A stretch of DNA of 50,243 nucleotides from a virus: the IMG/VR virus record IMGVR_UViG_3300032315_000895, positions 1 through 50,243 of that record, one strand, 5' to 3'. Positions 33,571 to 49,750 of this stretch are shown here, in pieces. The number at the start of each line of letters is the position of its first letter. The first letter of the stretch is position 1. The translations under genes and the position numbers were made by a program. Below the pieces are notes generated by a model. The model had not been told where the DNA came from. It worked only from the letters and a program-made list of their open reading frames with translations, and did not search any database.

Positions 33571-33942
33571 ATGCCTTTCGAGTCTTCGCAGGGAATTGAT
33601 TTCAAGTTTTCCGGCCAGTCGTTCACGGCGAACCAGATTCAGGTGTCGCAGCAGGTCAGCGAAATCGACGTCTCGTCGCTCTCTGATCCGACCGGCAGCT
33701 ACCGCAGCTTTCGCCCTGCCCCGATCCGCGAGGCTCCTGAGCTTCAGATCGAGTTCGTCGGCATGACTCTCCCGCAGATGACCGCGACCGGCGCGATTAC
33801 CTGGACGGTCGCCGCCAGCGGCTCGAACGCGGGCTTCACGACCGGCATTCCGACCGTGGCGCTCTGCACTCAGGCAAGCGTGACGGCCGCTGTCGGCGAG
33901 TTGATCAAGGGCTCGGCGACGTTCCGTCTGACGCAGAACTAG
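33571..33942 (+). CDS. Tail tube-like protein 1
   Basis: A 123-residue beta-rich protein, with a strong AAGGAGGG ribosome binding site about eight bases before the ATG. It has Q-V-S-Q-Q-V-S-E-I-D-V-S-S-L and a C-terminal V-G-E-L-I-K-G-S-A-T-F-R-L-T. These resemble small tail tube proteins in which I-x-V-T-S-L and G-x-F-x-L-T strands form the ring. A second protein of the same length class and ending follows, so either could be the major tube subunit. Confidence 0.7.
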   Translation: MPFESSQGIDFKFSGQSFTANQIQVSQQVSEIDVSSLSDPTGSYRSFRPAPIREAPELQIEFVGMTLPQMTATGAITWTVAASGSNAGFTTGIPTVALCTQASVTAAVGELIKGSATFRLTQN

Positions 33943-33972: not shown

Positions 33973-34386
33973 ATGGCACTCCTGTCACCGCACGGCTCGC
34001 CTACGGCGAGCAAGGGGCTGGAGTGTACTTGGGCTGGGTTCATGCTTAACGTTAAGTCGCTGTCTTACAGCAGGTCTGCCTCGGCGGAAGTAGATATTAC
34101 ATGCATGGACTCGTCGGCCCAGACTGACGAGAAAAACTCAACGAGGAGACTCACCGTCAAGTCTGTTGATTACGGGATCATCGACCCAGGCGAAGTTCAG
34201 CTTGAGTTCTTGACCGGCGCAAACGGACTAACTTTGTCTAGTCTCATTGGCAGAAAAAGTGAACTCAAGTTCAAGACGGATGAGTTCGAGGTAGCGTCGC
34301 AAGCGATTCTGACACAGTTCTCAATGCAGATGCAGGTGGGCGAGTTCATCACCTGCAACTGTACGTTCAAGTTCACGGAGCTTTAG
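33973..34386 (+). CDS. Tail tube-like protein 2
   Basis: A 137-residue protein with beta strands S-L-S-Y-S-R-S-A-S-A-E-V-D-I-T-C-M-D-S, G-E-V-Q-L-E-F-L-T-G-A-N-G and the end M-Q-M-Q-V-G-E-F-I-T-C-N-C-T-F-K-F-T-E-L. It has the same overall plan and C-terminal G-E-x-I-x-x-x-x-T-F-x-x-T as the preceding protein. Two consecutive tube-like genes may give major and minor tube subunits or a tube and an ancillary protein. It contains four cysteines, three of them near the C-terminus or in the M-D-S region, whereas the first copy has one. Confidence 0.7.
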   Translation: MALLSPHGSPTASKGLECTWAGFMLNVKSLSYSRSASAEVDITCMDSSAQTDEKNSTRRLTVKSVDYGIIDPGEVQLEFLTGANGLTLSSLIGRKSELKFKTDEFEVASQAILTQFSMQMQVGEFITCNCTFKFTEL

Positions 34387-34436: not shown

Positions 34437-34802
34437 ATGGCATTTCTCAACAAGGCGGCGATTCTGGCGGCGAAGGACAAGAAGCAGGTCGAGGTCACTG
34501 TTCCTGAGTGGCTCGACGATGCAGGGCAGCCCGGAGTGGTCTGCCTTCGGGTGCTGACCGGCACGGAGCGCGATCGCTTCGAGGCCGAGTTCGTGGGCGG
34601 CAACAAGAGCGTGGACATGGTCCGTGCGAAGCTCGTGGCGAAGTGTCTGTGTGACTCGGAAGGCAACCGTCTCTTCACCGAGCAGGAGATTCCTGCTCTC
34701 GGCGAGAAGTCGGCGGCCGTCCTCGACCGGCTCTTCACGCAGTGCATGAAGTTGAATCGGTTTACCAAAGATGACGTGGAGGAACTCGCGGGAAACTGCT
34801 GA
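34437..34802 (+). CDS. Tail assembly chaperone, short form (gpG-like)
   Basis: A 121-residue protein. It has T-V-P-E-W, a D-x-F-E-x-E segment (R-D-R-F-E-A-E-F), V-R-A-K-L-V-A-K-C-L-C-D-S-E-G-N-R-L-F-T, and a C-terminal L-F-x-x-C-M-K-L-N-R-F-T. These match tail assembly chaperones encoded between tail tube and tape measure in siphoviruses. It coats the tape measure during tail assembly. The gene ends in a slippery sequence that allows a longer fusion product. Confidence 0.8.
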   Translation: MAFLNKAAILAAKDKKQVEVTVPEWLDDAGQPGVVCLRVLTGTERDRFEAEFVGGNKSVDMVRAKLVAKCLCDSEGNRLFTEQEIPALGEKSAAVLDRLFTQCMKLNRFTKDDVEELAGNC

Positions 34803-35098
34803 GCCGTCCGAGGCGGCGATTTGAGTATCGGCTGGCGTTAGCACTCGGCAAGACGCACAGGCAACTCCTTGAGGAGTGCGATGCGCAAGAACTCGCTGAG
34901 TGGGAGGCCTTTTGGCTCATCGAGCCGTGGGGGGACGAGTGGCGACAAATCGCTCGTCTCACCACGGCTCTTTGCACTGCCTGGGGCAGCAAGAACCTTG
35001 AAGAAGAAATGATCATGCCGAGCCACAGGAAGCAACAGCAAACGCCTGGGCAGATGTTGTCTGAGCTAATGAAAATTCCATCGCTGACAAAGAAGTAA
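34437..35098 (+). CDS. Tail assembly chaperone, frameshifted form (gpGT-like)
   Basis: Ribosomes slip -1 on G-GGA-AAC (34790-34796). They then continue in the other frame to TAA 35096-35098, giving about 220 residues. The second part reads R-R-R-F-E-Y-R-L-A-L-A-L-G-K-T-H, then L-A-E-W-E-A-F-W-L-I-E-P-W-G-D-E-W-R, the usual signature of gpT-like extensions. No independent start with a ribosome binding site exists for it. By analogy with lambda, the short form is made in excess and the long form recruits the tail tube protein. The stop overlaps the tape measure ATG (TAATG). Confidence 0.88.
34790..34817 (+). promoter_or_regulatory. Programmed -1 frameshift site
   Basis: The heptamer GGGAAAC fits X-XXY-YYZ, and the zero-frame stop TGA follows after one codon. 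A short hairpin GCCG (34803-34806) / CGGC (34814-34817) starts six bases downstream, the usual distance for a stimulatory structure. Confidence 0.85.
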
Positions 35099-38000
35099 TG
35101 GCAACGATCGGCAGCATCACCGTCGCGTTTGGGGCGGACCCGGGAGGTCTCAAGAAGGGCGTCGACGACTCGATCGGCTACCTCAGCGATCTGCGTGCGA
35201 GCATTGCAGAGACTTCGAGCGAGCTTGAGAAATTCAACACCACGCTTGCTGCGCAGGCCAACGTTGCAAATGCTGCGCTCGGCAAGATGCAGGTTGAGAA
35301 GCAGATTCGGATCGACGCAGATTTTGCTGCCGTCGAGGAGGCGGCCAGGGAAGTCGACGCCATCGCGGCGAGCGTTGAGTCTGATTCGTCTCCGAAGCTG
35401 ACTATTTCGGCCGACACCTCTTCCCTGTCAGAAGCGTCTGGATTTGTCAGCGAGTTTGCTTCGACAGCGAGCGACGCCTTTCAGCGAACTGGAGACGAAG
35501 CCATCGCTGGCGCAAGGCGAATGGATGCCCTTCGCACTTCAGCTTCTGCAATAGCCGGCGGAGTCTCGCAAGCATATGGAGCAATTCAATCTACAGCACG
35601 CGCGACTTCGTCTGCGATTGATGCGGTTGGTGATGCCGCCTCGACGGTCGGCAAGGTCGGCCAGAAAGGGTTTCAGGGGCTGGGCTCTGCGGCAGACACT
35701 ACCGTTGTGGCCGTTGGCAGGACAGTCGCGGCGGTGTCAGCGCTCAAGGCTGTCGGAGATGCTGTCGTCTCGTCTCTCGGGCTCTCCGCCAAGGGCGTAG
35801 CGGGATTCGTGAAGACACTCGGCGGCGCGGCCGTCGTCTCGGCGGCATTCGGGGGGAGCGCGGCGGCGACATCGCAGGTAATCGGGCGGATCGGCTCGAT
35901 ATTCGCAAGCGCGGGGGCGTCGATTGCAACGTACTCGGCGATCGTATCGCTAGCGAGAGTCGCAACGGCGGGCATGAGCGACGAGGCGAAGGCCTACGCC
36001 GAGTCCGGCGCTCAGTTTGTCGGCGCGATTGCGGCCGCCAAGGCTGGGGCACTCGTGGGCTCAGCCGCCTACAGAACGCTCGCGGCCGCCATATTCAACT
36101 CAACATCGGCGACAGACGCAGCCCAGAAGCTGGTTGCAATTCTAGGTAATTCATTTACGCAGGCCGCCAGCCGCGCCCAGGCTTTCAGCACAACTCTTTC
36201 GAGGGTAACGGCGGCAACAAAAATACTGGCCGCTGCGGCGGATGATAAAACTACTGTGTCCGGTTTCTCGGCGATTGTCGCCCAGACAGTCGGCATGTCC
36301 GCCGCGTTCGGCGCTGTGTCAGGCGCTGTCGCAAACTTTGCAGCCGGCCAATCCGTGGCCGCCGGTGCGGCGGCAGGGGCCGCTGCCGCCATGGGCAGCC
36401 TGATTGCAGCCTTCCCCGTAACGGCGGCGCTTGCCGCAACAGCGGCTGTCGCCACCGGCCGTTTTCACGACGAACTCAAGAGACTTGCCGGCGAAGCCGA
36501 GACGGTCTCCCAACTCTCTGACAGGTTTGGCGCATCGACGCAAGAGATGGAGCGGCTCAAGACGGCCGCAGAGTTTGCCGGCATCGGGATGACTCAGCTT
36601 GCGAGGGCGCAGCAGTCGTTTCTCGCGAATCTCGACAAGGTCAAGATTGGTCAACTCAACACCCAGAGCGTTCGCGAGGCAAAGATTGCCTTCGACAAAC
36701 TTGGCCTGTCGATGGAAGACTTGAAGGATAAAGACCCGAGGCAGGTATTCGCGGAAGTCGCAGAGAAGCTGTCGGCGGTCAGGGACCCGGCGGAAAAGAC
36801 CGCCATCGCGGTCGACCTCCTCGGGCAGCGCGGGGCGATGGTCCTGCCCGCGCTCAAGGAGTTCGGGGAACTCGCGAGCGACTTTGACCGCATCGGCGGA
36901 GCGCTCAGCAAGATCGACTTCGAGCGATTCAACTCGCTCGAAGGGTCCTTCGACCGAGCGGAGAAGGCGTCGAAGTCACTCGGCAGGACGCTCCTCGTTC
37001 CGTTCACGGAGCTTCAGAGGGCGTTCAACAACCTGAGCGCTGAACTGTCGGGAGGCCTGTCGAAGGCGATGGCCCCGATTGCGAGCATGCTTGCCGACAT
37101 AACGAAGCCGATCGCCGTAATTATCGAAGCATTCGGCAGGATGCTCAACGTGTTGCTGAGGATTATTGGAATCTTCACGGCGATTGCGGCGTACTCTCAG
37201 GTCTTTGCCAGTTTTGCGGCAGTCGCCAAGGGTTTTGGCGAGGGCTTCAACGCGGCCCTGAAGCCTCTCGAAGAACTGATCGCCATGCTGACGGCCGGTT
37301 CGTCTGAAACGACTGTCTTCAGCAAGGCAGTGGAAAGCATGATGGTAGTGCTGAACGGCATAGGGAAAGCCATCGGACTCGTCATCGGCGCGATTGCCAA
37401 TCTTGCAATCTTCATCGCTGCGGGTGCCGCCGCGTGGGGCATCTACACGGTGGCGGTGGCTCTTGCGAGTGCCACTTCGCTCACGGCGGCAGCGAGCTTT
37501 GTCATCGCCTGGGCCGCTGCCCTCGGCCCGATCGCGCTCGTTGTCGCGGGCCTTGCTGCGCTCGGGGCGGCAGTAATGGCCGTCGGCTACGCCGTTGTGC
37601 AGGGGGCAAAGTGGCTCTACAGCTTCGGCCAGTCCATCGGCCTGATCGGCAAAGACCGCAAGAAGATCGACGCAACGAAGGCGTCCGTAGAAGAGCTTGC
37701 CGTGGCGGCTGCCGCCTCGGCGAAGGCTGTCGAAGCGTCAGCGGCCGGTGTGCCATCAATCAAGGCGCCGGGTGTCGAAGAGATAAAGTCCGCTGTCGCC
37801 GGAGCAACTGACGCACTCGGTGAACTGACGATCGAGGCTGCCAAGTTTGGAGATGCCGGCTCGGACGTTGCATCGACGGCCAGCATTCAGTTCAACAAAC
37901 TCAAGCAACAGTTCGCCGACGGCGCAATTAGCCTTGAAGAGTTCAGAAGCGGTGCTGCCGAACTCGCAGACAACCTGCGAGAAAACCTTGACGCAATGAA

Positions 38001-40254
38001 GGACGACAGTCCTGAGATCATGCTCAAGAAAAATCTTGATCTCTACAAGCAGCTTGACGGCGCCGTGAAGCAGGCCGGAAAGTCCATTCGCGATCTGACC
38101 GCCAACAGAGAAGTAAACGACAAGCTCTTGCCGGCGTCTGCGGAAGTCAAGCGTCGCGCAGAAGAACTAAAGAGCCAGTACACGGCCGCGTTGGAGGCAA
38201 TTAAGCGGAAGCAGCAAGCCGGCGGCTTCCAGAAGGAATTGACGCAAAAGCGAGCGCAGCTCGACGCCGACTTCCAGTCCGGCCAGATCGACTCCGCGCA
38301 GTACACGATGATGAAGCTGGAACTTGACTCCACGAGCGCCCAAGAGCAGGCGCAGATCGCCGCCGAGGAAGTCCAGCGAGAGTTCGACCGCAAGAAGGCA
38401 AAAATCCAGGCCGACATTTCCTTTGCCGACGACATCCGCAAGAAGCTCGAAGACGCGTTCACGTCTCCCGTCCAGAAGATGGAGAAGGAACTCAAGAAGA
38501 TCGCAGAGAATCCGGACCTGAACCCGAGCGAGAAGGCAGCGGCGTCCTTCATGGTCAAGAATCAGGCACGCGAGCAGCTTGTCGGCAAGAATGCCCAATC
38601 GCAACTCCAAGAGCGGAGACGCGACCTAACCCAAGCCAGGGACTCGGGCCTCATCTCCGGCGAAAGTTTCAACGCAGAGATGAAGAAGGCCGCAGAAGAT
38701 TTCGCCGCCGCTGTCGGGGTCACAAAGACTCCGTTCGAGGCATTCTCGTCGTCGCTCGATAACATCGCCAAGCAGTTTGGCTTTGCCGGGCAGCCACTCG
38801 AAGAGGTTCGCCGTAAGCTGGCCGGCAACGCCGAGCAGTTGGCGACCTTTGACCGCGCCGTGGCCGAGGCTCGCGACAACTTGCTCGCGTCTCTCGGCGT
38901 CGAGAAGAGCCCGCAGAAGGTCTTTGAAGAGCAGATGGAAAAGATCGACGAGGCGGTCAATTCGACCGACCCGTCAAAGAGGATCACCGAGAGCGAGGCC
39001 GCCCAGGCACGCGCGGCCGCGACCCGAAAGCGAGACTCGTCGCTTGGGGCGGGCGAAGACTTGGGCGGGCAGTTCGCAGAGCGACGGGCCAAGATTGAGG
39101 AGGCTTACGGCGACGGCAAGGACCCTGCCCGTGAGTCCATTGCCATGAACAAGCTGGACATGGATCGCCGGCAGGCTGCCGGTCTCGACGCCACGCCCGC
39201 ACAGACCCTCAAGGCAGGCGTCGACAAGATCAACGACGCGTTCGGCGTCACCGGCAAGTCGATGGCCGAGATTCAGGCTACGCTCTCCCCGGAGGCGTTC
39301 GCGGAGTACCAAGACGCGATCAAGGAGAACGCCGACAAGGTCAAGGCAAGCCTGGGAGTTGAGCAATCCGGCGCAGAGAAGCTCGCAAAGTCTCGGGAGA
39401 AGCTGGAGCAGGCCGTCAGGGACGGCGTGATTACGGAGCAAGAAAAGAACAAGGCCATCAAAGAGCAGCGAGACGCCCTGCTTTCTTCGCTCGGCATACC
39501 GAAGACTCCCGCCCAGGACTTCGAGGACGCCGTTAACAAGATCAAGGAGAACGCAGCCGAGCTTTCTCCTGAAGAGATAACGAAGGGCCTGAAGGAGGCA
39601 AAAGACAAACTGCTTTCGAGCCTCGGGATCGAGAAGTCGCCAGTGCAGGCCGCTTCGGAGCAGATGGAAAAGCTGAGCGAAGCCTTTGCGAAGGGCCAGA
39701 TCAGCGCCGAGGAGTTTGCAAAGGGCTCCCAGAAGGCCAAGGACACGCTGCTCCAGTCGCTCGGCATTCCGCTCGATCCTGTCACGCAGTTGGCAGAGAG
39801 GATGAAGAATCTCGACGAAGCTCTCGCTTCAGGTTCGATCACTAACGAGGAGTTCAAGCGAGGACAGGAAGAGGCGAAGAAGTCTTTCCTGCCCGGCGGC
39901 GAACAGGAGAGCCCGGTCAAGAAATTCCAGCGAGACCTGGAAACGCTTCAAAAGGCGAACAGCGAGGGCCTGATCGACGACAGTGAGCTTGCCGACCGCA
40001 AGAAAAATCTCCAGGCCGAGCTTCAGGAGTCTCTCGGCCCCGCCCTCGACAACCTCAAGCCCGACCGCCGGGCGATCGAGGGCTCCGACGTTCGCAGCAA
40101 GTCCGGCGTCGACACCTTCTTCCGCATCCTTCGCGGCAATGACAATCCGTCGCTGAAGGCACAGCTTGAGGTGGCAAAGAACACGCGATTCCTCGCAGAG
40201 GCCGCAAGGAATCCAGACGCCGCGCCAGTGATCGCGCAACTTCCGGCGAGGTAG
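35098..40254 (+). CDS. Tape measure protein
   Basis: A 1718-residue protein placed directly after the chaperone pair. The N-terminus (I-G-S-I-T-V-A-F-G-A-D-P-G-G-L-K-K-G-V-D-D) is typical of tape measures. There are Ala/Gly-rich hydrophobic segments (about 215-300 and about 755-840), which in tape measures can insert into the host membrane, and long helical, charged regions. Residues about 1190-1640 contain degenerate repeats of about 45-65 residues with L-x-S-L-G-[IV]-x-K-[ST]-P and a following helix (E-x-M-E-K-L-x-E-A). It sets tail length by extending through the tube; at about 0.15 nm per residue the tail would be about 250 nm. No lytic transglycosylase or peptidase motif was seen. Confidence 0.9.
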   Translation: MATIGSITVAFGADPGGLKKGVDDSIGYLSDLRASIAETSSELEKFNTTLAAQANVANAALGKMQVEKQIRIDADFAAVEEAAREVDAIAASVESDSSPKLTISADTSSLSEASGFVSEFASTASDAFQRTGDEAIAGARRMDALRTSASAIAGGVSQAYGAIQSTARATSSAIDAVGDAASTVGKVGQKGFQGLGSAADTTVVAVGRTVAAVSALKAVGDAVVSSLGLSAKGVAGFVKTLGGAAVVSAAFGGSAAATSQVIGRIGSIFASAGASIATYSAIVSLARVATAGMSDEAKAYAESGAQFVGAIAAAKAGALVGSAAYRTLAAAIFNSTSATDAAQKLVAILGNSFTQAASRAQAFSTTLSRVTAATKILAAAADDKTTVSGFSAIVAQTVGMSAAFGAVSGAVANFAAGQSVAAGAAAGAAAAMGSLIAAFPVTAALAATAAVATGRFHDELKRLAGEAETVSQLSDRFGASTQEMERLKTAAEFAGIGMTQLARAQQSFLANLDKVKIGQLNTQSVREAKIAFDKLGLSMEDLKDKDPRQVFAEVAEKLSAVRDPAEKTAIAVDLLGQRGAMVLPALKEFGELASDFDRIGGALSKIDFERFNSLEGSFDRAEKASKSLGRTLLVPFTELQRAFNNLSAELSGGLSKAMAPIASMLADITKPIAVIIEAFGRMLNVLLRIIGIFTAIAAYSQVFASFAAVAKGFGEGFNAALKPLEELIAMLTAGSSETTVFSKAVESMMVVLNGIGKAIGLVIGAIANLAIFIAAGAAAWGIYTVAVALASATSLTAAASFVIAWAAALGPIALVVAGLAALGAAVMAVGYAVVQGAKWLYSFGQSIGLIGKDRKKIDATKASVEELAVAAAASAKAVEASAAGVPSIKAPGVEEIKSAVAGATDALGELTIEAAKFGDAGSDVASTASIQFNKLKQQFADGAISLEEFRSGAAELADNLRENLDAMKDDSPEIMLKKNLDLYKQLDGAVKQAGKSIRDLTANREVNDKLLPASAEVKRRAEELKSQYTAALEAIKRKQQAGGFQKELTQKRAQLDADFQSGQIDSAQYTMMKLELDSTSAQEQAQIAAEEVQREFDRKKAKIQADISFADDIRKKLEDAFTSPVQKMEKELKKIAENPDLNPSEKAAASFMVKNQAREQLVGKNAQSQLQERRRDLTQARDSGLISGESFNAEMKKAAEDFAAAVGVTKTPFEAFSSSLDNIAKQFGFAGQPLEEVRRKLAGNAEQLATFDRAVAEARDNLLASLGVEKSPQKVFEEQMEKIDEAVNSTDPSKRITESEAAQARAAATRKRDSSLGAGEDLGGQFAERRAKIEEAYGDGKDPARESIAMNKLDMDRRQAAGLDATPAQTLKAGVDKINDAFGVTGKSMAEIQATLSPEAFAEYQDAIKENADKVKASLGVEQSGAEKLAKSREKLEQAVRDGVITEQEKNKAIKEQRDALLSSLGIPKTPAQDFEDAVNKIKENAAELSPEEITKGLKEAKDKLLSSLGIEKSPVQAASEQMEKLSEAFAKGQISAEEFAKGSQKAKDTLLQSLGIPLDPVTQLAERMKNLDEALASGSITNEEFKRGQEEAKKSFLPGGEQESPVKKFQRDLETLQKANSEGLIDDSELADRKKNLQAELQESLGPALDNLKPDRRAIEGSDVRSKSGVDTFFRILRGNDNPSLKAQLEVAKNTRFLAEAARNPDAAPVIAQLPAR

Positions 40255-40256
40255 CT

Positions 40257-41132
40257 ATGGCAGTCGTTTCAACGAGAGAGATGTTCCGTGGCCGATCGCG
40301 GTCAGCGACGTTCGGAGACGTGCCGACGTACACTCGCGTGTGGATGGTCACCGTCGACGACGCCGCGAATGCGTACCAGGAAATCAGCGCTGCCCCTGGA
40401 GTCGCGTGGCTTGAAAACCACCCTGAGGATGAGAATGCTTTCCTCACGGATTCGAGCGTTCAGCAGGAAGGCGACTCGCCGTTTCACTACCGAGTCACGT
40501 TCACCTACAAGGGTCTCAAGCCCGACGAGGCCAATCCGATCCCGACCGATCGACCGGCGCAGTTTTCCTTCTCAGGTTCTCTCGCCTCGGCCCCTTGCTT
40601 CTGGCACTACCCAAACCCGGGCGATAATTCTGCTTCGTCTAGGCGGATCATCATTAACACTGCCGGTGACCCCATCGGCGGCCTAGACCGGGACGAGGGT
40701 GAGTTTACGGTCTCGATCACCAAGAACACTCTCCCTCCCTTCCCATACGCCAAGGCACAGAACTACGTCGGCGCGGTCAACAGCGACTCATGGAGCGGTG
40801 GCGTTGCCGGGACGTGGAAGTGCATGTCAATCACCGGTAATCGGAAGATCGAAGAGGTCAACGGAACTCAGTTCGTCTACTACGAAGTGAGCACGACACT
40901 TGCCTACCGTGGCACGGGATGGGACCTCCAGACCTGGGACGTTGGGTTCAACGAGATCGTTGGCGGCCAGCGGAAAAAGATCATGGCCGGCAGCGAGCCG
41001 GTGAGCGAGCCGGCGGCGTTAAGCAGCGGCAGGGCCAAGGCCCCGGGCCAGCCCCCAGACATGCTGATGTTTCGCATCTACAAGTCTTTGCCTTTCCTTG
41101 AAACGTTCCCAGTTATACCGGATACGGTATGA
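40257..41132 (+). CDS. Distal tail / tail-tip protein (unassigned)
   Basis: A 291-residue protein following the tape measure, the usual place of distal tail proteins. It is beta-rich, with Y-T-R-V-W-M-V-T-V-D-D, F-H-Y-R-V-T-F-T-Y-K-G, F-V-Y-Y-E-V-S-T-T-L-A-Y-R-G-T-G-W and W-D-V-G-F-N-E-I. The C-terminus is rich in Ala/Pro/Gly before M-L-M-F-R-I-Y-K-S-L-P-F. No catalytic motif is evident. A structural role at the tail tip is inferred from position. Confidence 0.6.
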   Translation: MAVVSTREMFRGRSRSATFGDVPTYTRVWMVTVDDAANAYQEISAAPGVAWLENHPEDENAFLTDSSVQQEGDSPFHYRVTFTYKGLKPDEANPIPTDRPAQFSFSGSLASAPCFWHYPNPGDNSASSRRIIINTAGDPIGGLDRDEGEFTVSITKNTLPPFPYAKAQNYVGAVNSDSWSGGVAGTWKCMSITGNRKIEEVNGTQFVYYEVSTTLAYRGTGWDLQTWDVGFNEIVGGQRKKIMAGSEPVSEPAALSSGRAKAPGQPPDMLMFRIYKSLPFLETFPVIPDTV

Positions 41133-41521
41133 GTTCAGGCAGCTACAGATCGAGCGGCAACTGGGGCACGAAGGCCGTTCAGTTCACGCTTCAGGATGCA
41201 GAGCGAATCGCCGCTGCGGTGCAGTCGTCGGAGCGAGGGCGGCGAGGGCGAAAGCCGAGCACGCTGCCGAGGGCGGCGGGCGGCGGCGGACAGGCTTCCG
41301 GAGGCGGCGTGACATTCGCAACGTTTGGCGGCTCGTGGTTTAAGGGCACCTACAAGACGATCACGCTGCTTCCTGGAACCGCAACGGCGTCTGCTTACAA
41401 TTCCCTGTCGAACATCGCAGGCACCGGCGCTGGAAGGAATTGCACGGTCTCCGTGTTTCCGGGCCCCGGCCCAAGCGGAGAAGAGGACGAGTACCGCCTA
41501 GTCTCTGCGGAGTGTTCGTGA
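41129..41521 (+). CDS. Small tail-tip protein of unknown function
   Basis: A 130-residue protein in ATGA overlap with the previous gene. It has a basic central stretch (R-G-R-R-G-R-K-P), a Gly-rich linker, then a beta-like domain with F-A-T-F-G-G-S-W-F-K-G-T-Y-K-T-I-T-L-L-P and a C-terminal E-E-D-E-Y-R-L-V-S-A-E-C-S. It lies between the tail-tip protein and the giant fibre, so a structural linker is plausible. No family is recognised. Confidence 0.55.
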   Translation: MSSGSYRSSGNWGTKAVQFTLQDAERIAAAVQSSERGRRGRKPSTLPRAAGGGGQASGGGVTFATFGGSWFKGTYKTITLLPGTATASAYNSLSNIAGTGAGRNCTVSVFPGPGPSGEEDEYRLVSAECS

Positions 41522-41522
41522 A

Positions 41523-44500
41523 ATGAACGGGCTCGGGATTGGAGACTGCCTGAAGCGGTTTCTTTGCTGCTTTCCACGGGTTTACGCGTGGTTCCTGTAT
41601 CATCGCCCTGGCCTTCAGAAGACCGCCGGCAACGATAATTTAGAGGCCGGCGACAACTGCGGCACGCTTCCGCCAATATCTGGCTATGGAATTGTCGGGC
41701 CAGTCGAGTCCCAGGAGGAATGGGAGTATGTTGCCGGCTGCGGGGCGAGAGCATACGGAATAAAAAGCGACGGATCGCTTTGGGGGTGGGGCACCGGAGC
41801 CCTCGGAGACGGCACCTCCTCCGGCAGCGCAGTTCCAGTGTTCATTCACCAAGGCCCCTGGAAGATGGTTTCGACGAGCGCCAACAACGCAACGCTTGCC
41901 ATCAAAGAAGACGGGACCATGTGGTCATGGGGAGATAATAGTGCCGGCCAGTTGGGCCTCGGAAGACGGGGCTCTCCGCCGGGGACATCTGCCCCCAAGG
42001 CGAGGCTGTCCTCGTCGATAGCGCGAGTTGATTGCAGCGATGGAGGGATGTATTCAAAAACTCCTTCGGTTTCTTTTTTTTATAAGAGCAGCGAGCACCC
42101 TGTCTACTGGGACGAAGCCCCTGGACCCGGCAGCGGCGTCGTGGCAGAGGCCGTCATGGATTACTCGCTCAAAGACTACCGGATTAACGTCGATGCTTCC
42201 GGGAGTGGGTACACAAGCATTCCTCTCGTTCGCGCAGTCGAGCAGCAATCACCTCCAAAAGAAGAGGCATCAGTCAGCCTTACTGTCCGCTTCCAGGTGG
42301 TCTCCGTAGAAGTGCAGGCTGGCGGCTCAGGGTACTCGACGCCTCCAGTTGTGACAGTCCCAGGAGTTTCTGGTTTTCAGGCAACGGCAGTAATTTCAGG
42401 CGGCACGATAACGGCGATAGAAATTCAATCGCCGGGATTTGTTCAGTTCTCGTCAACCGGCGACAGCGGGGGGCAAAGAACGCTCCCAGTCGTAATCGCG
42501 GGGGCGGGGGTCGGGGCCTCAGCGCTCGCAAAGCTGGGGAACGGTTATATAGTCGAAGGAAACGTCTCGGCTTCAGGCAGCGGATACCGGGCTCCAATTT
42601 CTCTTGAGGTCCCCGGAAGCGGGAGAGTTTCCGTCCGGTCGACCGGCAAGGTTGTTGGCGTAAAGATTTACAACGGCGGCAGCGGTTACACAAATAGCAG
42701 CACGAAGGTACTTTCAGTCCGATTCAATCGTGATCCCCAGGACGAATTCACCTGGGGAAACTCTGCTTCGGGCACTCCCGCACTTGTCCCGGCCCAGGCG
42801 ACAGTCGAGTGGGAAGGCGATCTATCTTCATACCTTGCCGACCCATTTTTTACGGGTCGAGACGGAAGGATTCTCGGCTTCTCCTTCGCCTATACCGCCC
42901 CGACGAACTTGGTTTCACTTGAGGCGAGGATCGTCGGCGGCGGACTCTCGTGGGAAGACGGAATTCCCGTCTCCTACTCGGGGGGCAGGCTGAGCTACGA
43001 CGGCTCTTCTGAAGTCGGCTTTTATACCGCCCCGTACATTGCGATGAAGATTTCGATTTCGACAACAGCTAACACATCTTTTGGCCCGTTCCGGCCGATC
43101 TTGAGGTACGAAAGCGACGACGACCCCCGCAAGGCGATAGCCGATGCGTGGGACGTGGAGTACAGCGGCGGTAGACAAATTTTGCACCCCTACTTCTGCA
43201 ATCCTTATCCATGCGAACGAGAGACGATCACAAAAGAGACCGGAGACCTTGTTGAGTTTGTCAACAGCCTCAAGGGTGAGGTTTATCCAGGCTCTGTCGT
43301 TGCAACAAGTTCGATGGACTACTCTTGGAACTCCTGGTACTACGGCGACCAATTCTACTCAAACATTGCTGGAGAGCCGGAACTGGTCGTCAGTCCGGAG
43401 GGCGCTGAGTTCGAGCTTTTCGACGTTTTTGACGGGAGGGCTTTTTTTAACCAGACGAGCACTGGCGGGGAGTACAGGCGAGCCTCATCGTCCGACCTGC
43501 CTGCCCCGCCGCCGTTTGTCGACCCTTGCGGGCGATCAATTACTTACTCCGGGCACAAAAGAATTACTGTTGACTATGAAAATATTAGCGTAACGCTTAC
43601 CGGCCACAGCGTAGAACCATATTTTATTGCAAGGTCCATATCGCTGCCGCAGGGGGCATTCCCATATCCTAAATCATCCGCCGGGCGGGCGTTTTTTGCA
43701 TTTGGAGAAGGGCGAGAGCAGGGCTGCTTTTCGGTGGGGCTCAGCGGATTGCAGGTCCACAGAGTCGGGGGCTATTGGGTCAAAGAGCCTAGCGTCACAG
43801 CACCCTACGGCCTGTCAGGCGGCGGCAGCCCGATCCCTCAGCAAATTCCAGGACAGTGGTCTCACTGTGAGGCAGACCAACTTTCTGCGGTATCGTCTTC
43901 GGGAATTGTTTACAGGTGGAATTCAACAGTCCCGCAGCCTGAAGACATGGGTCGCCCGGCAGAGATAAACGTTTCGTGGAATAAAGACAGCGTTCCATCT
44001 CGCGACCGAGCGGTCAGGTCTGAGTACGAAATTCGCGGTTTTCGTAGCGGCTTCTTCAGTTCTGAACTCGATCAAAGATTTTTCACCATGTCGCCCCCGC
44101 AGGCGATCAACGGAGCGGCAGCGGCCATAGAAAGAACGAAGAGGCTGTGCTACGAGTACAGGTTCTTCCCGGATGAACTGCCAAACGACTACTTCTACTT
44201 CATTAGCACAAAATCCAGCGACGAGAAGGACGGAGTCGACGGCGAAGCCCAAGTGATGTTCAACAAGAGGCCAACCGCCGATTGCTTTATGAATGATTTC
44301 TCGACTCCCCCTCTGACCGTCTACTCTACAGGAGCCGGCTATCGCTCGCCCCCGGAAATACTTTTCTCTCGCGGAGGTGACCCGCTCGTTGAAGTGACAA
44401 CCTCTCTGGCGGAGGTTCCCGCCTTTTTAGAGACCCGCTCAAATTACGCATTAGCGGAAGGCGGCGAACTATGGCATCTCGGCGGCGGCTGGAGAGTAGT

Positions 44501-47500
44501 CGACTTTGATTACAAAATAGTCGCAAGAAAAGCTGCCTTTGAATCATCTCCACTGTACGACTCATTTTTTATTCTAGCATCCACGTCGGACGTGGTGGAG
44601 AGCGATAGTGAAGGCAACGAGACTATATGGAAAAACGTGTCTCCATACTTTTGGTGGAATAGTTATAACTATTATTCGACGCTCTCCCCGGCTTGCATGA
44701 CAAAAAGTCCAGTGAACCACGAAACGGTTGAGTCGGTGGACGCTGTTGTCGGGTACGTTATCGTTTTCGACGACGGCGGAAGCGGCTTTGATAATTATAG
44801 CCAATGGACAATCAGAGTAACTCTGCCGCAGCAACTCTCTTTGGCCGCCGCGTTCTCCGCCTACAGTGTTCTTAATTACACTGCGGAGAGAACCATTTTC
44901 GGAAGCAACTCTCCGCCGTTTCCCTCATTTCCTGACGAGAAGGGGTACAAACTTTCTAAATGGGTTTACGATGAGAGACGCCGTGTCAACTCGTGTACGG
45001 GGACGTCCGCGTGGGACGGTGGCCCCGGGCCGGAGCAAAGTCAGTTCAACATTCCAGGGGCGGACTTGCGCATTCCGAGTTCCTGTAGCCACACGACGGA
45101 GTATGTGATTAAAAGAAGCCAGGGCAACGTCACTTCGCACCAGTCAAGTCCGTGGATGGGTTCGCTTATCCCCCCGACCGGCCTCGCTCCGGGAATTCTG
45201 TACTTTAATTCTATAAGCGACTTAAACGATGAGCCTACCGTCGAGTTTTTGTGTACCAGCGGCTCGGAGTCTTACGAGTCGCTGCCGTCATACCGAGTGA
45301 TTCCAGTGACGGGGTATTTGCAGTCGCTGGGCGGGCAGCAAAAAGTCGACGGCTCGTGGTCTGACTTTGAAATTGAGTCTGGTGCCAGAAAACTTTACAA
45401 GGCATCGTTTCCTACATACACCGGAATCGCGGCCCCTGGCGACGAGGCGGAGTTTGTCAAGACGAACCATGACGTCGGGCTAAAGGAGGACGGCTCGCTG
45501 TGGAGACTAGGGACTCCCGGGGTGAGCCCGTCCCGGGTGATGGGGAACTTGGAACTGAAGGTCGTCTCGCCCGGCAGTGGGTACACGTCGCCGCCAACGG
45601 CCGAGGTCTCGCCCCAGCTATCCGGAGTAGCTACAGCCACGGCGACATTCAACGGGAAGATCGTGGCAGTTGGCATCGACAATCAAGGCGCCGGGTACAG
45701 AACCCCGCCGCAACTCACAGTCTCCGGCGGCGCTCAGCTTCAGGCAGTCATCCTGGGTCCAGTCGACTCCGTGACGGTCACCAACGGTGGGTCGGGGTAC
45801 AAAAACCCGCCACGGGTGATTTTCTCGACCCCTGGAGCTTCCGCTTCGGGGAAAGCCTCTATGAATGGCAGCGTCGCATCCGTGAGGGTTGTCGACGGCG
45901 GTGAGGGCTACTCTGATCCTCCGACGATCTCGATGGGAGGAAACGCAACCGCGACCGCAACGATCAAGGGATACATCCAGAGTGTCATTGTCAACGAAGG
46001 CGGACTATATTCTTCAGCCCCGTCGGTCAACTTCTCTGGCGGCGGAGGCTCCGGCGCGACCGCCGTCGCCGTGATGGCTAGATCAGGAAACTCTCTCAAG
46101 GTTTCGTCCGTCGTAGTGACGAACACCGGCAGCAACTACACGTCATCTCCGGCCGTGAGCTTTTCGGGCGACGGGTCTGGAGGCGCAGCCACGGCCGTCC
46201 TGAACGCATCCGTCGACAGCGTGTCTCTGACGTCAGGCGGCAGCGGTTACGGAGACCACCCGACGGTCACGGCCGACGGCGCGGCAAGAACTCAGGCCAA
46301 GATTGCCGCAACGTGCTCGCTGGAGGTCGACTCAGTTTCTGTCGTGAACGGTGGTTCGTATAGGTCTGCTCCGACGGCCTCATTTGAGCCTGTCGGAGAG
46401 ATTTCGTCCGTCAGCCTCACGTCAGGCGGCGACGGATACTCTTCTGCCCCGGAAGTCAAAATCCTTGGCGGCCTGGGCTCCGGGGCGGAGGCGGCCTGCA
46501 CGATATCCGCCTCGATTCAGGGCTTCGCAATTACGAACAGAGGCAGAGGATACCTCTACCCGCCATACGTCCTGATAAATGGTGGACGGCGTCCCAAGCA
46601 AAGCACGCAAGCGAAGGCGACGGCCGTACTTGCGGGCGGGTCCATTGCCTCAATCTCCGTCGACGGAGGAGGCAGCGGATACTACGGGCAGCCAACGGTG
46701 GCATTTAAGTTTCCTGAGTCGGCAATCGCGAACTCTTCCGTGTCGAGCGGCTCCGTGTCCGGAGTTCAGGTCCTTTCCGGTGGATGCTACTACACTGATC
46801 CGCCGCAGGTTGTATTTGAGGGTACAGGGACAGGCGCGGCAGCAACCGCGCAGGTGCAGGACGGCGTCGTCACGTCCGTCAGCATTACGAGCGGCGGAAG
46901 CGGATACTCGACGCCCCCCAGGGTCAGTTTCTTTGTACCCAAAGGCGGCGGCGGCGCGGCGGCGGCGGCCGTGCTGTCGGGCGTGGTTGATTCAATCAGC
47001 CTCGTCTCTTGCGGCGTCAACTACGACCAGGACGCCTTGCCAGAGGTTCTCTTTATCGGCGGAGGCGGCTCCGGCGCGTCTGCATCGCTGTCTGTTGCAA
47101 AGTCTGGCTCCGGAGGAAATGCAACGACAACGATCAACGGCTCTGTCATCTACGCGAAAATCGTCAGCCAAGGCTCTGGATACCAGGACGAGCCGGCGGT
47201 TGGGGTCTCTGATTCAACAAACTTTATCATTCAAAAGGCAGCCCAGGAACTGGCTGATGGATTGATTGACCAAGATTCGCATGACGAGATTGTCGACGCG
47301 TCGCGAGCCGTTATCCGAGCAGGCGTTGCCGGGTCCGTCTCGGGAGTGACGATACAAAACGCGGGCCAGAACTACGTCCACGCCTCCGGGAGGTTCCACA
47401 ACCAGCACGGCGAAAGAAAGCCGTCGGACGTGGCGTTCAGGGGGCCGAGACTGGGAACCTTTGAATCGCTTTCATTTGCAAGTACGCAGGCGTCGACTTC

Positions 47501-48719
47501 AACGAACGCTAGGGGCGGCGGGGAAGTAACGGCGGTGCCCTCGCCGGGAGGAGAGTCTTTTACGAAAAGGCCTACAGTTCATTTCTGCGACACGATCGGC
47601 GTTTCCTTGTCGACCAGGGCAAGAGTTTCGAGCGTGGGCGTGATCAAGGGAGACCGCCTAGATTCACAGGGGTATTCCCTTTCGACGGTTTTCCCTTGGT
47701 ACGGAATTAATGGGTGGCCGTTTAAATTCGAGTCATCTCCTAGCCTGCCGTTTAACTCGAACTACGGGAGCTTTAATGTATGCGCGCAACCCAACCCCGG
47801 CGCAAGAAATAAGGCAGGGAGCCCAGTTAAGGGAGTCGTGCATCCATACGATTTCACTTGCTCAGCCATCCGGGCCGCTACGTTTTCCGGAAAGTTCGTT
47901 AGATTCCCGACGATTGGCGTGGAGTCCAGCTTGGGGGCCAGGGAACTGTGGCAAATGACTGGAGGAGGGGAAATAATGCACTATCAAGACGTCCCACTGC
48001 CGGGCCAGCAAAAGCATTCCGGCGACATCCAGGTCATAGTGCTTGATCCAGGTGTCGCTGAAGTCTTGTCTCCTCAGTTTCAGGTATCCATCTCGGGCGG
48101 CGCGGTTGTGTCGGTTTCCGCAAGCGGGCCGGCGAGGTTCGACGGGATATGGGGAGCCGGAGAACTTGTCGTCCACGGTGGCGGAGGCAGCGGTGCTAGG
48201 CTCTCTCTCTCTGTTTCAAGCGAATCGATGAATGTGTACGTTTTGGACGGAGGAAGCGGGTACACATCTGCCCCGAGCATAAAGTGGGTTTTGCCGCAAC
48301 AGGCATACGGCTTCAGGATGCCAGATCAATCTTCACCGTATCCGGCAGACGACTCAAAATGGAAGACTCGGCGCCCGGCAGATGGCTACCTTTCAATAGG
48401 AGATCGACGAATTGAGTATGTCATCGGCTCGACCGATGGCGGGTATGTTTCAATTAACGATAACGATCCGTTCGGAGGAACTGGTCTCTACGCTTTCTAT
48501 AAAGACGGCTTCGTCTCCGACGCTTCGCTCCTGGACGCAGGGTACTTCACGCAAAACTTTGACGGACCGGCATTTCTCAAGCATTACACTTCTCCCCCGG
48601 CAGTGACATTGTACGGAGGCTCTCCAGACGAGCAGGCGACCGTGCAGGCACCGGTCGTGCAATGGACAGACAAGTTCTCCGGCAAGGATGGGCTTTGCGT
48701 GGCTGTCCGACAAACATGA
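41523..48719 (+). CDS. Giant tail fibre/tip protein with RCC1-like and GSGY repeats
   Basis: 2398 residues. The N-terminal 50 residues include a Cys-rich hydrophobic segment (C-L-K-R-F-L-C-C-F). Residues about 65-145 contain RCC1-like blades (D-G-S-L-W-G-W-G-T-G-A-L-G-D-G, D-G-T-M-W-S-W-G-D-N-S-A-G-Q-L-G-L-G). Isolated blades recur later (about 990 and 1320, D-G-S-L-W-R-L-G). G-S-G-Y-x-x-P-P-x-V repeats occur at about 215-400 and form a dense block at about 1345-1895, with further single copies near the C-terminus (about 2240). The large middle is Tyr/Ser-rich and unassigned. It lies at the end of the tail operon and is probably the central fibre or host-recognition spike. No peptidase or glycosidase motif was found. 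Confidence 0.75.
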   Translation: MNGLGIGDCLKRFLCCFPRVYAWFLYHRPGLQKTAGNDNLEAGDNCGTLPPISGYGIVGPVESQEEWEYVAGCGARAYGIKSDGSLWGWGTGALGDGTSSGSAVPVFIHQGPWKMVSTSANNATLAIKEDGTMWSWGDNSAGQLGLGRRGSPPGTSAPKARLSSSIARVDCSDGGMYSKTPSVSFFYKSSEHPVYWDEAPGPGSGVVAEAVMDYSLKDYRINVDASGSGYTSIPLVRAVEQQSPPKEEASVSLTVRFQVVSVEVQAGGSGYSTPPVVTVPGVSGFQATAVISGGTITAIEIQSPGFVQFSSTGDSGGQRTLPVVIAGAGVGASALAKLGNGYIVEGNVSASGSGYRAPISLEVPGSGRVSVRSTGKVVGVKIYNGGSGYTNSSTKVLSVRFNRDPQDEFTWGNSASGTPALVPAQATVEWEGDLSSYLADPFFTGRDGRILGFSFAYTAPTNLVSLEARIVGGGLSWEDGIPVSYSGGRLSYDGSSEVGFYTAPYIAMKISISTTANTSFGPFRPILRYESDDDPRKAIADAWDVEYSGGRQILHPYFCNPYPCERETITKETGDLVEFVNSLKGEVYPGSVVATSSMDYSWNSWYYGDQFYSNIAGEPELVVSPEGAEFELFDVFDGRAFFNQTSTGGEYRRASSSDLPAPPPFVDPCGRSITYSGHKRITVDYENISVTLTGHSVEPYFIARSISLPQGAFPYPKSSAGRAFFAFGEGREQGCFSVGLSGLQVHRVGGYWVKEPSVTAPYGLSGGGSPIPQQIPGQWSHCEADQLSAVSSSGIVYRWNSTVPQPEDMGRPAEINVSWNKDSVPSRDRAVRSEYEIRGFRSGFFSSELDQRFFTMSPPQAINGAAAAIERTKRLCYEYRFFPDELPNDYFYFISTKSSDEKDGVDGEAQVMFNKRPTADCFMNDFSTPPLTVYSTGAGYRSPPEILFSRGGDPLVEVTTSLAEVPAFLETRSNYALAEGGELWHLGGGWRVVDFDYKIVARKAAFESSPLYDSFFILASTSDVVESDSEGNETIWKNVSPYFWWNSYNYYSTLSPACMTKSPVNHETVESVDAVVGYVIVFDDGGSGFDNYSQWTIRVTLPQQLSLAAAFSAYSVLNYTAERTIFGSNSPPFPSFPDEKGYKLSKWVYDERRRVNSCTGTSAWDGGPGPEQSQFNIPGADLRIPSSCSHTTEYVIKRSQGNVTSHQSSPWMGSLIPPTGLAPGILYFNSISDLNDEPTVEFLCTSGSESYESLPSYRVIPVTGYLQSLGGQQKVDGSWSDFEIESGARKLYKASFPTYTGIAAPGDEAEFVKTNHDVGLKEDGSLWRLGTPGVSPSRVMGNLELKVVSPGSGYTSPPTAEVSPQLSGVATATATFNGKIVAVGIDNQGAGYRTPPQLTVSGGAQLQAVILGPVDSVTVTNGGSGYKNPPRVIFSTPGASASGKASMNGSVASVRVVDGGEGYSDPPTISMGGNATATATIKGYIQSVIVNEGGLYSSAPSVNFSGGGGSGATAVAVMARSGNSLKVSSVVVTNTGSNYTSSPAVSFSGDGSGGAATAVLNASVDSVSLTSGGSGYGDHPTVTADGAARTQAKIAATCSLEVDSVSVVNGGSYRSAPTASFEPVGEISSVSLTSGGDGYSSAPEVKILGGLGSGAEAACTISASIQGFAITNRGRGYLYPPYVLINGGRRPKQSTQAKATAVLAGGSIASISVDGGGSGYYGQPTVAFKFPESAIANSSVSSGSVSGVQVLSGGCYYTDPPQVVFEGTGTGAAATAQVQDGVVTSVSITSGGSGYSTPPRVSFFVPKGGGGAAAAAVLSGVVDSISLVSCGVNYDQDALPEVLFIGGGGSGASASLSVAKSGSGGNATTTINGSVIYAKIVSQGSGYQDEPAVGVSDSTNFIIQKAAQELADGLIDQDSHDEIVDASRAVIRAGVAGSVSGVTIQNAGQNYVHASGRFHNQHGERKPSDVAFRGPRLGTFESLSFASTQASTSTNARGGGEVTAVPSPGGESFTKRPTVHFCDTIGVSLSTRARVSSVGVIKGDRLDSQGYSLSTVFPWYGINGWPFKFESSPSLPFNSNYGSFNVCAQPNPGARNKAGSPVKGVVHPYDFTCSAIRAATFSGKFVRFPTIGVESSLGARELWQMTGGGEIMHYQDVPLPGQQKHSGDIQVIVLDPGVAEVLSPQFQVSISGGAVVSVSASGPARFDGIWGAGELVVHGGGGSGARLSLSVSSESMNVYVLDGGSGYTSAPSIKWVLPQQAYGFRMPDQSSPYPADDSKWKTRRPADGYLSIGDRRIEYVIGSTDGGYVSINDNDPFGGTGLYAFYKDGFVSDASLLDAGYFTQNFDGPAFLKHYTSPPAVTLYGGSPDEQATVQAPVVQWTDKFSGKDGLCVAVRQT
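45557..47210 (+). repeat. Block of about 12 GSGY/PP beta-repeats
   Basis: Units of roughly 40-50 codons with V-x-S-V-x-[VI]-x-x-G-G-S-G-Y-x-x-P-P-x-V-x-F-x-G, then a Gly/Ala/Thr stretch (G-S-G-A-x-A-x-A). Units differ substantially, so the block is old rather than freshly expanded. The pattern suggests a beta-helix or beta-prism shaft. Confidence 0.75.
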
Positions 48720-49099
48720 ACCCCTGCCTCCCCGGAACAGCCCTGAAGCAACTCCTGTCCTGGTTCAAGCTCCAGGACGAAGCCGGCTGCCGGTGTGCGT
48801 CCAGGGCCCGAATCATGGACGCTTGGGGGTGTGACGAGACAGAGAGGAGAATGGACGAAGTGGTAGGATGGCTTCGTGAGGCCGCCGCCGCCCGAGGACT
48901 GCCGTTCATCGATTTCGCCGCCAGAGCCGCCGTGAAACTTGCAATCTGGAGAGCGAGGAATGGATCATCACTTCCTGATCAACGGGCAGAGGTGGCTCTG
49001 GAGGTACTCGACGCTCAAGGGCGGAGCGGAGGGCTGGACGGAGTACAGCAAGCACAAGGTGCTGATCCACTCGAAGCTCCGCCGGCGAGCGAGACTTGA
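48716..49099 (+). CDS. Small Cys-containing phage protein (127 aa)
   Basis: The start is ATG 48716, overlapping the giant fibre stop (ATGA). The N-terminal 80 residues contain L-S-W-F-K-L, C-R-C-A-S-R-A-R-I-M-D-A-W-G-C-D and V-V-G-W-L-R-E-A-A-A-A-R-G-L-P-F, a compact Cys/helical unit that I associate with short proteins near phage tail modules. The last 45 residues overlap the next gene for about 140 bases and look less natural, so the true end may be earlier or a small indel may be present. Function is unknown. Confidence 0.6.
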   Translation: MNPCLPGTALKQLLSWFKLQDEAGCRCASRARIMDAWGCDETERRMDEVVGWLREAAAARGLPFIDFAARAAVKLAIWRARNGSSLPDQRAEVALEVLDAQGRSGGLDGVQQAQGADPLEAPPASET

Positions 49100-49247
49100 A
49101 TGCGAATTGCACGAGGGATTGCACGCTGCCCTGGGCGACACGATCAGCGAGTCCTGCGTCGAGCGGACGGCTGCGGACTTGGCAAAAATCCTCTACTCGT
49201 TAGGCTATAGGCTGGATACGCGTACCCACGGAGGGCAACAGCCATGA
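48960..49247 (+). CDS. HExxH (zincin-like) small protein
   Basis: 95 residues from ATG 48960, preceded by GCGAGGA; an upstream ATG at 48939 is less likely. It has H-H-F-L-I-N-G-Q-R-W-L-W-R-Y, then I-H-S-K-L-R-R-R-A-R-L-E-C-E-L-H-E-G-L-H-A-A-L, with the H-E-x-x-H motif of zinc metallopeptidases, and a following S-C-V-E-R-T-A-A-D-L-A helix that could carry the third ligand. Such short H-E-x-x-H proteins accompany many phages; a proteolytic function is not demonstrated. It is coupled to both neighbours by overlaps. Confidence 0.65.
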   Translation: MDHHFLINGQRWLWRYSTLKGGAEGWTEYSKHKVLIHSKLRRRARLECELHEGLHAALGDTISESCVERTAADLAKILYSLGYRLDTRTHGGQQP

Positions 49248-49750
49248 TCGACGACAGGGAGGCGGTGGAGGAATTGGTCGAAGAGATGAAGAGCGACGAC
49301 GTCGTGCCTCGACTCTTCGACTCGCTCGACAATCCGAAGGACATCGTCGGCAGCAACAAGTTGCCGCTTCATCTCTGGCCGATGACGGCCACCGCGATGG
49401 GCTCGATCGCGATGCTCAACGGCGCAATCAAGTATGGTCGAAGCAACTGGCGGGTAGTTGGCATCAAGGCCTCGATCTACGTCGACGCCTGCCAGCGGCA
49501 TCTCTCGCAGTGGTTCGAGGGACACGAGTGCGACGAGGAGGGGGTGCCTCACCTCGCTTCGGCGCTCGCCTGCCTCGCGATCGTTGTCGACGCCCGCGCT
49601 GCCGGGACGCTCAGGGACGATCGGCAGGTCGAGGGCGGATACCGAGAACTCGTTCAGCAACTCACGCCGCATGTTGCCAGGATCAGAGAACTGCATGCAG
49701 ATCGTCCGCCGGCCAAGCAGTGGACGATCCGAGACTCTCCCCCGCCGTGA
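49244..49750 (+). CDS. dATP/dGTP diphosphohydrolase-like protein (DUF5664)
   Basis: A 168-residue protein in ATGA overlap with the preceding gene. The core K-L-P-L-H-L-W-P, A-M-L-N-G-A-I-K-Y-G-R-S-N-W-R, A-S-I-Y-V-D-A-C-Q-R-H-L, H-E-C-D-E-E-G-V-P-H-L-A-S-A-L-A-C-L-A-I-V-V-D-A matches the dATP/dGTP diphosphohydrolase N-terminal family (DUF5664). It has the helical His/Asp/Glu metal site of MazG/HD-like all-alpha nucleotide hydrolases. It probably cleaves purine dNTPs to adjust the nucleotide pool. In some phages this family goes with 2-aminoadenine genomes, but the companion genes are not in this window. Confidence 0.78.
   Translation: MIDDREAVEELVEEMKSDDVVPRLFDSLDNPKDIVGSNKLPLHLWPMTATAMGSIAMLNGAIKYGRSNWRVVGIKASIYVDACQRHLSQWFEGHECDEEGVPHLASALACLAIVVDARAAGTLRDDRQVEGGYRELVQQLTPHVARIRELHADRPPAKQWTIRDSPPP

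Follow-up and report, generated by a model that had tools for sequence, protein, structure and literature searches.

A phage protein with widely spaced RCC1-type blades and G-S-G-Y repeat arrays as a putative exchangeable tail adhesin

The DNA analysed here is a 50,243-base IMG/VR virus record, hereafter called the window, that is, the whole stretch at its full length. One of its genes encodes a protein of 2,398 residues in which RCC1 blades and G-S-G-Y repeats are combined, and with moderate confidence this protein is regarded as an exchangeable adhesin at the tail tip or in a tail fibre of a siphovirus-type phage, its framework being a single RCC1-type propeller from which very long excursions depart between the blades. 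In the proposed architecture, the N-terminal 1,345 residues would form one β-propeller of about six full blades (B1 to B6) and an N-terminal half-blade, and between successive blades the chain would leave the propeller in excursions of some 140 to 610 residues, several with G-S-G-Y units. After B6 the dense array of 15 G-S-G-Y units would come, and then a variable C-terminal region. As the rigid core of the molecule, the propeller would leave contact with the bacterial surface to the excursions and the C-terminal region, and recombination would replace these parts by divergent alleles and keep the repeat array nearly constant. The virus probably uses the protein for recognising bacteria, since its position after the tape measure, where phages commonly encode the tail tip that grips the host, its divergence, the greatest in the cassette, and the occurrence of another protein in the same slot point to host recognition. 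The tail location, the bacterial binding and the role of the excursions are thus proposed from gene position and sequence divergence, and the fibre or spike nature is suggested by gene position and by fast, mosaic evolution. What seems to be new is that blades of RCC1 type, G-S-G-Y arrays and excursions in most of the gaps occur together in one family-wide slot; no description of the family was found among titles and abstract openings of a literature set in which subscription journals are mostly outside, and the words RCC1 and propeller are absent from the available part of PMC10966104. The features are collected in Table 1.

Table 1. Features of the window (positions are those of the window, residues those of the 2,398-residue protein)
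Feature	Position	Strand	Residues	Remarks
Large terminase	11718-13028	+		structural cluster
Portal	13025-16786	+		structural cluster; 1,253 residues
Prohead protease	23636-26710	+		structural cluster
Major capsid	28802-30271	+		structural cluster, connectors after
Tail assembly chaperone	34437-34802	+		structural cluster
Tape-measure protein	35098-40254	+		PHROG match
p291	40257-41132	+		conserved 291-residue gene; query used to gather the phage clade
p130	41129-41521	+		conserved 130-residue gene, directly upstream of the target
Target gene	41523-48719	+	1-2398	ATG start; carries RCC1 and G-S-G-Y
N-terminal half-blade candidate	41577-41621	+	19-33	second half of an RCC1 blade, RVYAW...
RCC1 blade B1	41718-41852	+	66-110	Pfam, PDB, sliding scan
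RCC1 blade B2	41856-42002	+	112-160	Pfam, PDB, sliding scan
B2-B3 excursion	42003-43841	+	161-773	contains the sparse G-S-G-Y zone
Sparse G-S-G-Y zone (first zone)	42189-42695	+	223-391
RCC1 blade B3	43842-43982	+	774-820	sliding scans, shuffle test
RCC1-like blade B4	44394-44522	+	958-1000	sliding scans, shuffle test
Weak RCC1-like blade B5	45306-45422	+	1262-1300	clearer in L062, L063, L066
RCC1-like blade B6	45432-45557	+	1304-1345	sliding scans, shuffle test
Dense G-S-G-Y array (zone 2)	45540-47246	+	1340-1908	15 units
Variable C-terminal region	47247-48662	+	1909-2380
Possible C-terminal closing half-blade	48660-48716	+	2380-2398
p145	48662-49099	+		145-residue gene downstream, overlaps the target end by a few codons
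dATP/dGTP diphosphohydrolase-like gene	49244-49750	+		PF18909; end of the conserved cassette

Profile matches across the window show a structural cluster of siphovirus type on the + strand. The terminase is at most 38% identical to those of the phages listed, and a search of named phages with p291 (E up to 0.1) gave no match. The 2,398-residue reading frame is real, as originally taken, for it is intact and has intact full-length relatives on two other metagenome contigs. The protein has no match to the lambda J-type central tail fibre or hub in PHROGs or Pfam. A photosystem reaction-centre gene was searched for in the records of six relatives and none was found.

The RCC1 repeats at the N-terminus are borne out by Pfam matches above the curated cut-offs (PF00415, 31.4 bits against 21.7; PF13540, 30.2 bits against 22), which cover about residues 122-151 and are confined to the B1-B2 region, and by a PDB sequence search in which HERC2, RCC2 and UVR8 match at about residues 66-159. 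The whole RCC1-like (RLD) domain, PF25390, matches residues 68-151 at E 3.5e-10 with 40.2 bits, far under its cut-off of 150. Calling these repeats eukaryote-style, as the original prediction did, is misleading, because RCC1 repeats are common in phages and the label carries no information. The single blades far downstream, which it had also described, were recovered above shuffled references by a sliding profile for which four cyanophage proteins from two records supplied the 21 blades; this profile is not independent of B1-B2, since the records were found by matching B1-B2. With a 10-member alignment (392 windows) the highest scores stand at the expected blade places, and with a 24-member alignment (294 windows) scores above 13.3, the maximum reached by three column-shuffled references, occur at window starts 33-137, 737-793, 937-977 and 1281-1321, those starting at 1225-1249 (B5) being barely above it. 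Slices for B1 to B6, picked by eye where the sliding scans are unbiased, all outscore 100 of 100 shuffled references, B5 again barely (12.8 against a null maximum of 12.6), so that B5 is a marginal blade. Moreover, B3 is found by single sequence at E below 0.05 in seven of 27 members (P0002, L149, L155, L157, L166, L180 and, counted by position, L060), with E 1.8e-8 in L166 and 2.6e-5 in L155. Among four members given to Pfam, RCC1 matches were obtained in L061, L069 and L166 and none in L155; in L166 Pfam alone detects B3 (E 0.00057, 20.1 bits, below the 22-bit cut-off).

The candidate half-blade at the N-terminus aligns to template positions 20-33, and none of 100 shuffled references scores as high. 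Single-sequence matches are KIYGWGHNWSGQLGLGE in L157 and similar ones in L158, L159 and L166, and the Pfam RLD match begins at this half-blade in L166 (residue 20) and L069 (residue 14). The C-terminal residues align to template positions 1-18, just short of where the N-terminal half starts, with a borderline score that five of 100 shuffled references reach; single sequences were negative, with two of the 23 members ranking in the top 5%, and in a joined C-plus-N profile only the N half aligned. Among 23 complete members, 11 have both half-blade motifs, two only the N-terminal, two only the C-terminal and eight neither (Fisher p 0.003, with patterns chosen post hoc and related members that are not independent). 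Tentatively, and with rather more doubt than confidence, the whole chain may be one seven-bladed RCC1 propeller in which the N-terminal stretch and the C-terminal 19 residues share a blade as its second and first half, respectively, the 570-residue array and the variable C-terminal region being a single excursion. If so, the phages would retain the ring and exchange the excursions, and the protein would be a platform for display whose loops could each reach about 1,000 residues.

Segment-wise structure prediction, which the original prediction had proposed as a check, gave a divided answer: blades of the relative L069 superpose on known RCC1 proteins, and the segment of the target at residues 770-1560 folds poorly. 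The AlphaFold2 model of L069 residues 103-1185, which spans all blades and was made with an 11-row alignment, has a mean pLDDT of 34.6 and a pTM of 0.36, with islands of higher confidence at B1, B2 (maximum 82), B3 (maximum 78), B4 (maximum 61) and B6 (about 45). A pLDDT of 45 is exceeded at the sites predicted for B1-B4 and where the B3 region ends, and one further block of about 45 lies near model residue 235, outside the predicted blades. In a Foldseek comparison of this model with the PDB, RCC1 proteins rank first with about 92 columns aligned, the size of the B1-B2 pair. VIA-align, which was applied to the chains obtained from Foldseek and whose figures skip long low-confidence stretches, superposes the model on UVR8 (4d9s_A; Z 19.4, rmsd 3.2, 180 residues, model range 1-812) and HERC2 (7q41_C; Z 17.5, rmsd 3.4, 183 residues, model range 1-704), where unrelated propellers reach Z about 11-12; B6 falls outside the range. 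From the alignment length, roughly half of the residues aligned are expected beyond B1-B2, and to judge from the model range and the confident islands these would be B3 and B4. The model thus supports the packing of B1-B4, hundreds of residues apart, as consecutive blades in L069. In a comparison of the same model with predicted viral proteins, RCC1 proteins from phages and giant viruses fill most of the best rows. The model of target residues 770-1560 has a mean pLDDT of 35, gave nothing better than E 1.4 in Foldseek against the PDB, and is too poor for any claim on the G-S-G-Y fold. The idea of a propeller assembled from distant segments is consequently carried by the four blades of the low-confidence L069 model and by the conserved blade order, and gains nothing from the target segment itself.

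A whole-protein scan of viral contigs gave one full-length relative, L002, 50% identical in the best segment, and L004 was obtained in addition when the N-terminal alignment was the query. The blade region alone gave 77 loci, many of which are canonical RCC1 proteins; L060-L070, L117 and L131 have the layout of the target, and in these 13 loci, several of them truncated, the chaperone is followed by the tape measure, p291, p130 and the target in this order. The diphosphohydrolase-like gene is also often present where the contigs extend far enough. Among the loci found with the zone 2 profile, only L004 and L006 (on the L002 contig) join RCC1 motifs with the repeats by motif count, and a scan of bacterial and archaeal genomes gave only a canonical RCC1 protein, L058. 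When p291 was used as the query, 48 loci were obtained. The slot after p130 holds the RCC1 plus G-S-G-Y type in 33 of 39 classifiable loci and another, unrelated protein in the other six (L152, L153, L154, L176, L177 and L179), types being assigned by motif count and reading, and the counts are not independent because several loci come from a contig that was collected twice, in identical or nearly identical form. Outside the 39 are six loci without a readable downstream reading frame and three that were not classified: in L143 and L145 the frame picked has only 208 residues and resembles the p130 counterpart, and L178 is truncated. The unrelated slot protein of L179 has collagen-like G-X-Y repeats.

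Complete RCC1 plus G-S-G-Y members of the slot have 2,141-2,873 codons from stop to stop, the exception being the compact L155 (1,596 codons; 1,583 residues), the shortest complete member. Over 24 aligned members the blade order is constant and the inter-blade lengths vary about twofold (B1-B2, 36-90 residues; B2-B3, 407-866; B3-B4, 136-249; B4-B6, 224-411), as is expected of loops on a fixed core. A Cys-Cys motif (41565-41570, residues 15-16 of the target) is found within the first 45 residues of 19 of 27 family sequences, and CC occurs once at most in the remainder of each family chain; the motif, which may be part of an anchoring peptide, also stands near the start of the unrelated slot proteins L152, L153 and L176.

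A G-S-G-Y unit profile detects 19 units in the target that outscore all 200 residue shuffles (maximum 4.6 bits); 15 of them lie at residues 1340-1908, two within 259-391, one at 933-952 and one at 2241-2253. The two separated zones originally described are therefore present as a dense and a sparse zone, and two single units lie outside them. The best PHROG profile match is phrog_701 (E 5.8e-61, six stretches of the target), and most of the families that match the G-S-G-Y part are named as virion structural, tail or baseplate. In tblastn against named phages this part matches mostly Synechococcus and Prochlorococcus phages, and the zone 2 profile has no match among PDB sequences at E up to 10.

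The target is the most divergent of the genes compared in the cassette. Between the window and L002, amino-acid identity is 72-90% in the flanking genes and 42% in the propeller region. At four-fold sites, identity to L002 is 0.59 for the chaperone, 0.57 for p291, 0.61 for p130, 0.28 for the propeller and its inserts, 0.84 for zone 2, 0.34 for the C-terminal region, 0.71 for p145 and 0.55 for the diphosphohydrolase; identity to L004 is 0.47 for p291, 0.64 for p130, 0.37 for the propeller, 0.69 for zone 2, 0.35 for the C-terminal region, 0.84 for p145 and 0.62 for the diphosphohydrolase. The propeller and C-terminal stretches are thus nearly saturated at silent sites between close relatives. 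Since these stretches exceed the flanking genes in silent-site divergence and zone 2 lies below most of them, the exception being p145 in the L004 comparison, the gene is a mosaic in which divergent alleles flank a recently exchanged or homogenised repeat array. Purifying selection alone was considered for the constancy of zone 2 and rejected, because the silent sites too are more alike than in most flanking genes; recent exchange or conversion is the likelier cause, and zone 2 could serve as a homology anchor for exchange.

Other explanations of the protein have to be weighed. In one of them, B1-B2 would be a small remnant, the blade-like segments further along the chain would be isolated hairpins that never meet, and the protein would be a linear string of β-modules, a fibre with no closed propeller. 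It is in accordance with such a string that only B1-B2 reach curated cut-offs in the target, that the Foldseek alignment has only about the extent of B1-B2, and that the target segment 770-1560 did not fold; however, the blade order is constant in 24 members though the B2-B3 distance ranges from 407 to 866 residues, the profile scans exceed their controls, and four blades superpose as consecutive ones in the L069 model, so that this explanation is considered unlikely.

The other two explanations concern the function. The protein might be a structural organiser of the tail tip or baseplate (hub, nozzle or muzzle-like), host binding being left to another protein. A candidate for the latter is the 1,401-residue reading frame at 5404-9609, upstream of the terminase, which has fibronectin type III and laminin-G-like lectin domains, matches phrog_31 (central tail fibre J) and is a second candidate adhesin. 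A precedent for an organiser is the muzzle protein gp44 of a crassvirus, a tail-end protein described in the available part of PMC10172136 as having a seven-bladed propeller with inserted domains, and among the PHROG families that the G-S-G-Y repeats match are some named virion structural protein or baseplate wedge. Against an organiser it can be said that structural hubs tend to be conserved, whereas the target is the most divergent of the genes compared in the cassette and is replaced in six of the 39 classifiable loci; an organiser is therefore considered improbable. Far less probable still is a tailspike enzyme degrading surface polysaccharide. The target is indeed a large, repetitive, β-rich protein, probably of the tail, and phage endosialidases contain propellers according to the part of PMC4901313 available, but no catalytic family was found in the target in Pfam (E up to 1) or NCBIfam (E up to 0.1), in agreement with the original remark that no catalytic domain is visible. 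In addition, the PHROG matches are to structural, tail, connector, unknown or regulator-of-chromosome-condensation families, those to connector and tail-lysozyme families coming via the repeat region.

The adhesin on a stretched propeller, the reading preferred here, can be compared with several known systems. Canonical phage RCC1 proteins (PHROG 4219; S-SRM01 gp335, gp337 and gp344) share the RCC1 blades with the target, and those of Synechococcus phage S-SRM01 adjoin a tail-fibre gene. They have, however, 344-405 residues at a near-regular spacing of 50 residues without long excursions, in contrast to the 2,398 residues, the excursions of 140-610 residues and the G-S-G-Y arrays of the target. 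RCC1 proteins of phages W70 (PHROG 4219) and GAP32 have been found in virions by mass spectrometry, as reported in the accessible parts of PMC11370258 and PMC5259590. The crassvirus muzzle gp44 resembles the target as an interrupted tail β-propeller, with domains inserted between and inside its blades, the tail place of the target being a proposed one; its propeller is likened to the T7 nozzle protein and not to RCC1, and G-S-G-Y arrays are not mentioned in the available text (PMC10172136). The receptor-binding protein Gp45 of Staphylococcus phage phi11 is a siphophage host-recognition protein with a propeller platform, but it is a five-bladed trimer with a coiled-coil stem and a tower, with residues up to 636, and RCC1 repeats are unmentioned in the portion of PMC4901313 at hand. 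Furthermore, T4-like cyanophages have G-S-G-Y proteins (PHROG 701, 2885, 708 and others) with the repeat unit of the target (E 2.9e-36 to 5.8e-61); these are structural proteins in a gene context unlike that of the target. Propellers with inserted domains are thus already known at phage tail ends. A family of propellers with hundreds of residues in most gaps would show how far this fold can stretch and offer natural swap points for host recognition, and for at least one clade it would explain the G-S-G-Y arrays as parts of such displays; the compact L155 makes the idea directly testable.

Some further observations were made in the structural cluster. In the portal reading frame, the portal profile matches stop near residue 619, leaving about 600 residues extra. 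A 2,342-residue reading frame with a TTG start (16762-23790) lies between the portal and the prohead protease, a size unusual for this position, with no match in Pfam and only a short one in PHROG. Just in front of the tail assembly chaperone, a pair of small genes (33571-33942 and 33973-34386) look like paralogues, L066 (799-2663) and L069 (228-2100) have a tandem of four p123-like copies and one p137-like copy, and the small tail-region genes ahead of the chaperone vary in number between relatives.
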